Shown: one piece after another, positions 97-11,788 of the stretch
Numbering within the stretch: the stretch's first letter is position 1
How the letters are laid out: every line of letters begins with the position of its first letter
Source: an uncultured Victivallales bacterium
GTDB lineage: Bacteria > Verrucomicrobiota > Lentisphaeria > Victivallales > UBA1829
Direction: 5' to 3'
Assembly (NCBI GenBank): GCA_944390795.1
Contig: CALXRI010000007.1
Coordinates: 1-64,000 of the forward strand
Length of the DNA: 64,000 nucleotides
The notes under the pieces: model-generated
Databases searched by the model: none
Told to the model about the DNA's origin: nothing
Seen by the model: the letters and a program-made list of their open reading frames with translations, nothing else
Made by a program: the position numbers and the translations under genes

Positions 97-1533
97 TTAC
101 ATCGTCCCCAGAAGATCCCGGAAATCGTTCACGGCATCTTCCAGGGAACCGGGATAAGCCGCACCGCCGCCAAGGCAGAGGAAGCCGTTGAAATTGTGAC
201 AGCGGAGGATCGAAACCAGCTCCTTGATCTCTCCGTTTCCGCATGCAAGCGCGGTCGCTTCACCGTCCCATTTGCAGTCCGCGACATCGAGCTGACGCAG
301 AACCTTGATGAAATGCCCGATGCGGTAGGACTGCAGGAAAGGCATTTCGCCTGCCTGCACAAAGCGCGGACCGTTGAACGTAAGATCGCAGCCGGATTTT
401 TCCGCCAGCTCCGCAACCGCCTTCTTCGCGGAGAGTGCGCTCTGGCAGAGATTGACGAAACTGACTTCGACTCCCGCCTTTTTCAGGACATCCGCGGCAT
501 CCCGGGAATTCATCAGGGGAAGAATCACGCGCCGGATGCCGCACGAGGAAGCCAGTCCGGCAAGCTTCGCCGGATCGTCCGGAACGGCGGGAACGCGCAG
601 CGCGGAGACGGCAATTCCCGCTTCGGCAAGTTCCTCGACGGCGCGTCTGAGCTTGTCCGCCGGAGTCAGCGCGCACGCCTTCCCCTGCAGATAATCCAGT
701 TCGATCAGCGAGATTCCCGTGCGTTTCAGATTCTCGATCATCTCGGGCACATAACGCCCGGCAAGGCGCGAGGAGACGGTCAGGCGGAACGATTCCTCCG
801 CCATCTCCGCCGCAAAAATCGCGGCGCGCTGGCGCACGCAGTCAGCGCAGGAGGGATTCGTGCAGAGCGCAAAGGCGGGATCCTCCTCTCCGAGCGCAAG
901 CAGGACTTCAAACATCTTCGATGCGCGGATCAGCCGGACCTGCGCGTTTCCGATCCGCCCGACGCGCATCGCCCCGCTTTCCAGCAGGATGCGGTCAAGC
1001 CCGATGAAATCGCGATGGGGACCGGGATAAAAACTCCATGTCTTTGTCAGTTCCTCGCCCTCCGGCGTCCGGAAGGTGCGCGTCACAGGCGAAAGATACG
1101 GCAGTTCGAGAAGCGCTTCCACGGAATGGAGCGACGTGTTGCGGTCCTGGTCCACGCCGAGAAGACAGATCCAGCCGTCCTTCTCCGCGAGCTTCGTGAA
1201 CGGCGTATTCTTCCCGTGCGCCGTATCGGCCTTCCAATGTCCGGCGCAGAACTCCTCTGCCGCTGCGCCGACCGCAGCGACCGTGCCGACCGGACAGTCG
1301 CTGAACACGGCGTCAGAACGCTTCTTCAACACCTCCGGAATAATCCCGAGCGCGCCGAAGGCAGGCACAAGAAGAGTGCCGCGTTTCCCGATCACATTCA
1401 GAAAAGCCTTCACGACGGCTTCCGCGCCGCCTTCCATATGCCCCAGGCTGATCAGGGAGCTGTGCAGCAGGACGGCATCCCCTTTCCCAAGTCCAAGTTC
1501 ACGAAGCGATTTTGTCAGTTCGACAGCATTCAT
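97..1533 (-). CDS. AAC(3)-like N-acetyltransferase fused to a sugar phosphate isomerase/epimerase-like TIM barrel
   Basis: The protein has 478 aa from the chosen start. Residues 1 to about 215 resemble the AAC(3) aminoglycoside acetyltransferase/YokD fold (LLHSSL at 22-27, GTLLVPAF at 52-59, NTSLHSVE at 132-139). A cysteine-rich linker CTNPSCADC (224-232) follows. Residues from about 250 to the end look like a xylose isomerase-like TIM barrel with a typical tail (LACGNGEI, then GFLCLGGG). A longer frame opens at 1584, but the ATG at 1531-1533 has AAGGAG eight bases upstream and begins where the family begins, so I chose it. It is the last gene of a minus-strand run with a cyclase and a fucosidase, which suggests an amino-sugar or glycan-derived substrate rather than an antibiotic. 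Single-domain AAC(3) enzymes are about 260-270 aa, so this is a genuine two-domain protein. The substrate is unknown. Confidence 0.75.
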   Translation of the reverse strand: MNAVELTKSLRELGLGKGDAVLLHSSLISLGHMEGGAEAVVKAFLNVIGKRGTLLVPAFGALGIIPEVLKKRSDAVFSDCPVGTVAAVGAAAEEFCAGHWKADTAHGKNTPFTKLAEKDGWICLLGVDQDRNTSLHSVEALLELPYLSPVTRTFRTPEGEELTKTWSFYPGPHRDFIGLDRILLESGAMRVGRIGNAQVRLIRASKMFEVLLALGEEDPAFALCTNPSCADCVRQRAAIFAAEMAEESFRLTVSSRLAGRYVPEMIENLKRTGISLIELDYLQGKACALTPADKLRRAVEELAEAGIAVSALRVPAVPDDPAKLAGLASSCGIRRVILPLMNSRDAADVLKKAGVEVSFVNLCQSALSAKKAVAELAEKSGCDLTFNGPRFVQAGEMPFLQSYRIGHFIKVLRQLDVADCKWDGEATALACGNGEIKELVSILRCHNFNGFLCLGGGAAYPGSLEDAVNDFRDLLGTM

Positions 1534-1593: not shown

Positions 1594-2220
1594 TCACTCC
1601 TCCTGTTCGGCGATCAGGCGGCAGGGAATCTGGGTGACTCCGGCAAGCGGCAGAAAGAGACAGGTGATTTTCACCTCTCCGCAGTGGAGCGCGGCAAGGT
1701 TCGCCGGACAGCAGACCGTCGTTACGCCCGCCTGAAAAAGCTTCAGAAACACCCCGTGCAGCGCCCGGCTCTCATACACGTCGGAAATCAGGTAACGCAC
1801 CCCGCAGGCAATGATCCAGTCGAGCGCGCTGTGATCCAGATAGACGATACGGGGCGGCAGCTCGGTTTCATCGCGCGCGCCAAGGGCGTTGATCACCAGG
1901 ACGGGCGTATGCGCTTTCCCGCCGAATGCGGCCTCCAGTTCAGCACCGGACACCGGCCCGTGGTCGCGGTCCAGCCGGATCACCGAGGCGGGGGCGCGGT
2001 AAAGTTCCTCCGCGGGAAAGTTTCCGGCATCCACGCCGTTGTCCGTTTCCCGGATGTGACCGGGGAAATCGATGTAAGTTCCGAGCATGGAGCTTTCCGC
2101 AATGCGGTAGACGACTCCCGTATAGCGTGTATTCGCGGATTCCAGCGCGACTTCGGACTCGGCTGCCTCAAAGCCGTCTTTGCCGCCCCTCCATCTTCTT
2201 GTCAGGTCAATGATATGCAT
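1594..2220 (-). CDS. cyclase-family (kynurenine formamidase-like) hydrolase
   Basis: The 208-aa length is typical of the metal-dependent cyclase/arylformamidase family. The N-terminus (MHIIDLTRRW) is the usual IxDLT opening. The segment LGTYIDFPGH (about residues 46-55) matches the family metal motif HxGTHxDxPxH, but with Leu and Tyr where the first two His usually sit, so the metal site may be altered. The start is the ATG at 2218-2220, preceded by a GAGG-like sequence. It lies between the GH29 fucosidase upstream and the AAC(3)-TIM fusion downstream on the same strand, probably co-transcribed. Substrate not predictable. Confidence 0.7.
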   Translation of the reverse strand: MHIIDLTRRWRGGKDGFEAAESEVALESANTRYTGVVYRIAESSMLGTYIDFPGHIRETDNGVDAGNFPAEELYRAPASVIRLDRDHGPVSGAELEAAFGGKAHTPVLVINALGARDETELPPRIVYLDHSALDWIIACGVRYLISDVYESRALHGVFLKLFQAGVTTVCCPANLAALHCGEVKITCLFLPLAGVTQIPCRLIAEQEE

Positions 2221-11500: not shown

Positions 11501-11546
11501 ACTGCCCCGGTGCAGAGCATGACACGGAGGGATCGGAGATTTCGCG

Positions 11547-11788
11547 GCCGGATTGCGCTGCCGGATCGCACAAGGGGCAACGACCCTTGACCCCGAGAAG
11601 AATGCGTGCGCATTCTTCCGTCTCCTGGAAGCCGGGGAAAGTTCCCGACGGAGGCCGGCTTGCGCTGCCGGATCGCACAAGGGGCAGCGACCCTTGACCC
11701 CGAGAAGAATGCGTGCGCATTCTTCCGTCTCCTGGAAGCCGGGGAAAGTTCCCGACGGAGGCCGGCTTGCGCTGCCGGATCGCACAAG
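11547..11788. repeat. 107-bp tandem direct repeat, about 2.3 copies
   Basis: Units begin at 11547, 11654 and 11761 (the last about 28 bases). The two full copies differ at about two positions. Each full unit contains a perfect 10-bp inverted repeat, GAAGAATGCG and its complement around a 2-base loop (11597-11618 and 11704-11725). No credible gene covers 11501-11871, so this lies in the spacer between a secreted protein gene and a nucleotidyltransferase-like gene. The strong symmetry suggests an RNA hairpin, terminator-like or protein-binding element. Confidence 0.9.

Follow-up and report, generated by a model that had tools for sequence, protein, structure and literature searches.

Near one end of a contig from an uncultured Victivallales bacterium lies a gene that reads as an AAC(3)-type acetyltransferase continued by a sugar-isomerase-like barrel, raising the question of whether such a protein exists and, if so, whether it acts on a drug or on a metabolite. 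Little is known of what AAC(3)-fold enzymes do natively, though clinical resistance genes stem from the AAC(3) family. In the open literature (most subscription journals being outside its coverage), no description of the fusion, or of AAC(3) in polysaccharide loci, was found. Here the fusion was analysed in the first 64,000 nucleotides of the contig (the window) and in other assemblies, with the features of the locus collected in Table 1.

A single gene that joins two known folds

The gene runs as one 478-residue frame from an ATG at 1533, preceded by AAGGAG, to a stop at 97–99. Its N-terminal half matches PF02522 (Antibiotic_NAT) in Pfam with E = 1e-38 and 133.7 bits versus a curated cut-off of 25, and the C-terminal ~240 residues of the window protein have no Pfam match of their own. 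An AlphaFold2 model of the whole fusion, built with 25 orthologues as input, reached a pLDDT of 92.3 and a pTM of 0.88. The initial annotation had described an AAC(3)-like domain joined to a TIM barrel in a single ORF, and had suggested a domain search for the same fusion elsewhere. The fusion was confirmed by the Antibiotic_NAT match, by the assignment of the barrel using AlphaFold and Foldseek, and by the recurrence of the full-length fusion, with exactly one match per genome, in 69 of 198 Lentisphaeria genomes. Full fusions of the same length were found in other assemblies at 47–91% identity, including one record labelled Planctomycetota. One of the 69 carriers (G150) has an in-frame stop in the gene, and in a phylum-wide sample the fusions outside class Lentisphaeria were confined to one family.

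Table 1 Features of the fusion locus and its neighbours in the window.
Feature	Position	Strand	Basis
Fusion gene, 478 aa: AAC(3)/Antibiotic_NAT domain, putative zinc tail and xylose-isomerase-like barrel	97..1533	(-)	ORF, Pfam, orthologues, AlphaFold
AAC(3) domain, residues 1-222	868..1533	(-)	PF02522 match in two pieces, profile positions 39-76 missing
Residues 58-61, site of the absent minor-subdomain loop (W63, D67 of AAC(3)-IVa)	1351..1362	(-)	Alignment; PMC8956665
Catalytic motif T133-S-L-H136-S-V-E139 (family TxPhiHPhiAE)	1117..1137	(-)	50 orthologues; PMC8956665
Putative zinc tail, residues 223-240, LCTNPSCADCVRQRAAIF; C224, C229, C232, probable fourth ligand H173	814..867	(-)	Conservation, alignment to AAC(3)-IVa
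Xylose-isomerase-like (beta/alpha)8 barrel, residues 241-478; invariant E278, D280, N361, D419, E435, E438	100..813	(-)	AlphaFold, Foldseek, hhalign
208-aa protein of the cyclase family (PF04199), 60 bp upstream of the fusion	1594..2220	(-)	Pfam E=1.6e-5
GH29 alpha-L-fucosidase, 422 aa	2326..3594	(-)	Pfam E=1e-68

The architecture is unusual, and it is this alone that would speak for two separate genes having been joined through a frameshift or misassembly. That reading was ruled out, and we give it practically no credence: the identical junction recurs in the 69 genomes, the junction cysteines are invariant in the 50 sequences in which the junction was aligned, and the barrel lacks a stand-alone relative, a profile search of 289 genomes having found no separate copy at E ≤ 1e-6. 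Both halves are under purifying selection, comparison with two near relatives giving dN/dS values of ~0.09–0.14 (AAC(3) half) and ~0.12–0.19 (barrel). In a quick tree, 12 sampled fusions formed one clade (SH-aLRT 100) that joined haloarchaeal AAC(3)s (SH-aLRT 91), whereas most AAC(3)s of Lentisphaeria fell elsewhere. The branches leading to AAC(3)-IVa and -IId were long and their placement was unsure. Each half has a known fold.

A second type of AAC(3) fusion, 800–940 residues long, carries an N-terminal DUF4910/M28-like peptidase domain and a C-terminal AAC(3) domain (L049:2255-4876; L051:9935-12355), and is present in several copies per genome in some Lentisphaeria. An apparent triple fusion of cyclase, AAC(3) and barrel (G096, L104:4565-6718) was rejected as an annotation trap, its ORF crossing a run of unknown bases.

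The AAC(3) half, its missing loop and its cysteine tail

Catalysis by Antibiotic_NAT enzymes depends on a His/Glu dyad together with a Thr within the TxPhiHPhiAE motif (PMC8956665). T133, H136 and E139 are kept in the 50 orthologues of the fusion, as are H24, H99, D128, D130 and H173, and in Foldseek searches the nearest fold neighbours of the N-terminal half were BA2930 and AAC(3)-IVa (E about 1e-17). BA2930, which is also the best single-sequence PDB match to the fusion, shares the Antibiotic_NAT fold with YokD and FrbF, but these proteins differ from the fusion in being single-domain and in that the zinc tail is not seen in the alignments shown; FrbF serves phosphonate biosynthesis. With the group 1 enzyme AAC(3)-IVa (6MN3-6MN5), the fusion shares the fold, the catalytic Thr/His/Glu and a C-terminal tail with Cys-x2-Cys and a preceding Cys/His. 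Unlike AAC(3)-IVa, to which it is 27–30% identical, it is without the Trp63/Asp67 loop and Glu185, bears a C-terminal barrel and has no resistance context.

The loop is the clearest departure from the family. PF02522 profile positions 39–76 were skipped in every fusion examined, leaving the domain incomplete, whereas the match is unbroken over this stretch in most unfused AAC(3)s from those genomes. By alignment, it corresponds to the part of AAC(3)-IVa that bears Trp63 and Asp67, both of which are drug contacts (PMC8956665). Glu185 of AAC(3)-IVa is not conserved either and aligns to F168 of the fusion, so that among the drug contacts W63, D67, E185 and E249 only E249 has an acidic counterpart, D231. 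This residue, together with the matches to Pfam and NCBIfam AAC(3) models, is what would argue for an aminoglycoside-resistance acetyltransferase. Against this, the NCBIfam scores fall far under the curated equivalog cut-offs (110 versus 270 bits for AAC_3, 91 versus 420 for AAC_3_IV), the Trp63/Asp67 loop is absent from all fusions examined, the gene is a single chromosomal copy throughout a class and has a metabolic partner, and no plasmid match covered 80% of the protein. Resistance was thus set aside on the missing loop, the cut-offs and the gene context as a very improbable function, in agreement with the doubt already voiced in the initial annotation, and the fusion is a caution against labelling such genes as resistance genes. 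Knowing its native function would also shed light on the gain or loss of the drug-binding loop.

The same comparison bears on the cysteine motif, CTNPSCADC, which had been taken for a linker between the two halves. In AAC(3)-IVa, a C-terminal extension holds a C3H1 zinc site as well as the drug contact Glu249 (PMC8956665), and phmmer aligned AAC(3)-IVa FLHPPEAGCEEC with FALCTNPSCADC of the fusion. C224, C229 and C232 are invariant (50/50) and, with the invariant H173, align to the AAC(3)-IVa tail. The C-terminal sequence is LCDDPDCWWC, or nearly so, in AAC(3)s that haloarchaea carry unfused, and LCDSPSCSVC in one stand-alone AAC(3)-family protein from Lentisphaeria. Since AAC(3)-IVa and stand-alone AAC(3)s share this tail, the motif is part of the AAC(3) domain rather than a linker. 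Judged from these alignments, the tail of the fusion would bind zinc, with H173 the likely fourth ligand of the putative site. A four-cysteine site with C445 as fourth ligand was also considered, AAC(3)-IVa homology favouring H173 instead. C445, conserved in 49 of the 50 orthologues, lies at the end of the helix that precedes the last barrel strand. The haloarchaeal proteins (for example Halomontanus rarus WP_276256023.1) are among the closest non-fused relatives, with 36–38% identity and a tail of the form LCxxPxCxxC, but they differ in being unfused and in retaining part of the loop that is missing from the fusions.

A barrel with altered metal positions

When modelled alone, the barrel reached a pLDDT of 94.7 in AlphaFold. 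Its top Foldseek matches were the xylose-isomerase-like (PF01261) barrels 3p6l, 3tva, YcjR, UlaE and AtHYD (E 2e-7, TM-score up to 0.70), and its fold is nearest to sugar-phosphate and 3-keto-sugar enzymes, DgpB-C also being among them. Alignment to PF01261 proteins by hhalign was near end-to-end (E 7.7e-6, probability 84%), and hhalign with one single barrel gene gave no match. Pfam's own model of the family, AP_endonuc_2, matched weakly in 5 of 25 orthologues (E ≤ 1, the best being 4.4e-6) and not in the window protein. From the solved PF01261 structures the barrel of the fusion differs in its replaced metal ligands, in the AAC(3) domain fused to it and in sequence, with identities of ~16% or less.

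In the hhalign alignment, the places of the canonical metal ligands Glu/Asp/His/Glu are taken by N361, N387, a residue that is Q or L, and G456. With these ligands replaced, a metal-dependent isomerase is unlikely; of the sugar isomerase originally proposed, the xylose-isomerase-like fold was confirmed by AlphaFold and Foldseek, but not the isomerase activity. Across 50 orthologues the invariant polar residues E278, D280, N361 and D419 lie at strand ends, with E435 and E438 at or after the start of the last-but-one helix, an arrangement that suggests a different active or binding site.

These features are relevant to a reading in which only the AAC(3) domain is an enzyme, and the barrel, a pseudo-isomerase without catalysis of its own, would hold the substrate or supply the pocket wall that the AAC(3) domain lacks. 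The loss of all four canonical metal ligands argues for such a role, as do the absence of the AAC(3) substrate loop exactly in the fusions and the finding that the barrel never occurs alone in the 289 genomes at the threshold given above. However, E278, D280, N361 and D419 sit at the C-terminal strand ends, as in active sites, and the dN/dS of the barrel is just slightly above that of the AAC(3) half. We therefore regard a purely structural or binding role as possible though rather unlikely.

Gene partners and a candidate amino-sugar pathway

In counts and Fisher tests that ignore phylogeny, on genomes that are not phylogenetically independent, the cyclase-family partner was present in 65 of the 71 genomes that have the fusion or a fragment of it versus 3 of the 127 remaining Lentisphaeria genomes (Fisher 4e-41); the corresponding figures were 40/71 versus 7/127 for an orthologue (63–80% identity) of a DegT/DnrJ/EryC1/StrS protein (Fisher 1e-15), and 47/71 versus 14/127 for the creatininase family. 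In 46 of 63 cases the cyclase gene immediately preceded the fusion in the same orientation, with a median gap of ~43 bp. Because the fusion is present in about one third of the genomes sampled from the class, and almost invariably together with one and the same partner enzyme, it is a real enzyme that is probably sugar-related rather than a resistance gene. The cyclase-family and GH29 neighbours of the window had been read as a fucosidase operon; both genes are there as described, but among the loci examined GH29 adjoins the fusion only in the window's genus and is not the defining context.

The cyclase partner itself departs from the HxGTHxDxPxH metal motif: in 39/39 proteins the two His of HxGTH have given way to Met45 and Tyr49, with D51 and H55 kept. 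It was observed that the metal motif of this partner and the metal site of the barrel are both changed, as if altered together. A ROK repressor gene, DegT and creatininase often accompany the fusion and cyclase, eight genomes having DegT no more than ~6 kb from the fusion and in the same orientation, and Gfo/Idh genes are patchy, being present in some clusters. Among solved structures, those of perosamine synthetase and scyllo-inositol transaminase are closest to the DegT protein.

Acetamido-sugar pathways, such as those of UDP-2,3-diacetamido sugars, use an aminotransferase followed by an N-acetyltransferase, an order that the fusion clusters resemble, some of them with Gfo/Idh genes as well. 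On the strength of this pairing and of the closest solved relatives of DegT, we tentatively favour a reading in which the fusion, as a two-domain and probably cytoplasmic N-acetyltransferase, would acetylate the amine of an amino sugar or aminocyclitol in an acetyl-CoA-dependent reaction. The amino-sugar reading is also supported by the conserved T133/H136/E139 and H24, the AAC(3) fold, the sugar enzymes among the neighbours of the barrel, and the co-occurrence with cyclase and with DegT, the latter a link to DegT/StrS sugar aminotransferases that was out of sight of the initial annotation and strengthens the amino-sugar idea put forward there. In such a pathway, a Gfo/Idh/MocA oxidoreductase, where present, would yield a keto sugar, the aminotransferase would convert the ketone to an amine, as expected from its family, and the AAC(3) domain, with H136/E139 as general base, would N-acetylate this amine using acetyl-CoA. 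The barrel, placed right behind the putative zinc tail, might replace the lost drug loop in substrate binding, or run a further non-metal step using the conserved polar pocket E278, D280, N361, D419 and E435. The metabolite may also be a substrate of the cyclase- and creatininase-family proteins, and a sugar of the pathway could be the signal sensed by the ROK repressor.

Several observations weigh against the amino-sugar reading. The DegT orthologue was absent at the threshold used from 31 of the 71 genomes, and creatininase from 24. Since the 31 absences exceed what incompleteness would explain (6 genomes lack the cyclase, taken as a yardstick), DegT is a dispensable partner, and the amine may be supplied in some other way. 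To our knowledge, free amino sugars are not a substrate of any characterised relative, and two hydrolase-family genes are odd in N-acetyl-sugar biosynthesis. These points touch on an alternative in which the amine acylated by the fusion is not a sugar, in the manner of FrbF in phosphonate biosynthesis, within a catabolic pathway that includes the cyclase and creatininase hydrolases, with DegT a partner in some species only. The cyclase is indeed a far stricter partner than DegT, cyclase and creatininase families often cleave amides, and FrbF, YokD and BA2930 are inactive on aminoglycosides despite their Antibiotic_NAT fold (PMC8956665). Conversely, DegT/StrS aminotransferases work on keto sugars and inososes, and the fold neighbours of the barrel are sugar enzymes; we consider a non-sugar amine an unlikely substrate.

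Within the favoured amino-sugar reading, a more far-reaching version is that these genes encode a hitherto undescribed pathway that is conserved across Lentisphaeria, in which a loop-less AAC(3)-fold enzyme would make an acetamido sugar or cyclitol, with a metal-free barrel as second active site and with an altered cyclase and DegT; as a whole, this is a speculative possibility that we rate below the acetylation step itself. A single-copy fusion found class-wide with fixed metabolic partners is a concrete system for finding the native function of an AAC(3)-fold enzyme. The stand-alone AAC(3) gene of Halomontanus rarus adjoins a separate xylose-isomerase-like (sugar phosphate isomerase/epimerase) gene, with Gfo/Idh and creatininase genes within ~5 kb, an arrangement that also supports the amino-sugar reading.

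In the window's own genome, genes for creatininase, a 375-residue protein, DegT, ROK and U32 lie together on another contig (C30, L154, 7696-13786). Because these genes follow the fusion on one contig, in the same order, in a sister genome (G003, L153), the group probably continues the window's contig beyond position 1, the contig end splitting the cluster. Elsewhere in the window (11546-11788), a 107-bp unit is repeated in 2.3 tandem copies; it belongs to an interspersed family with 38 matches genome-wide, several of them near contig ends.
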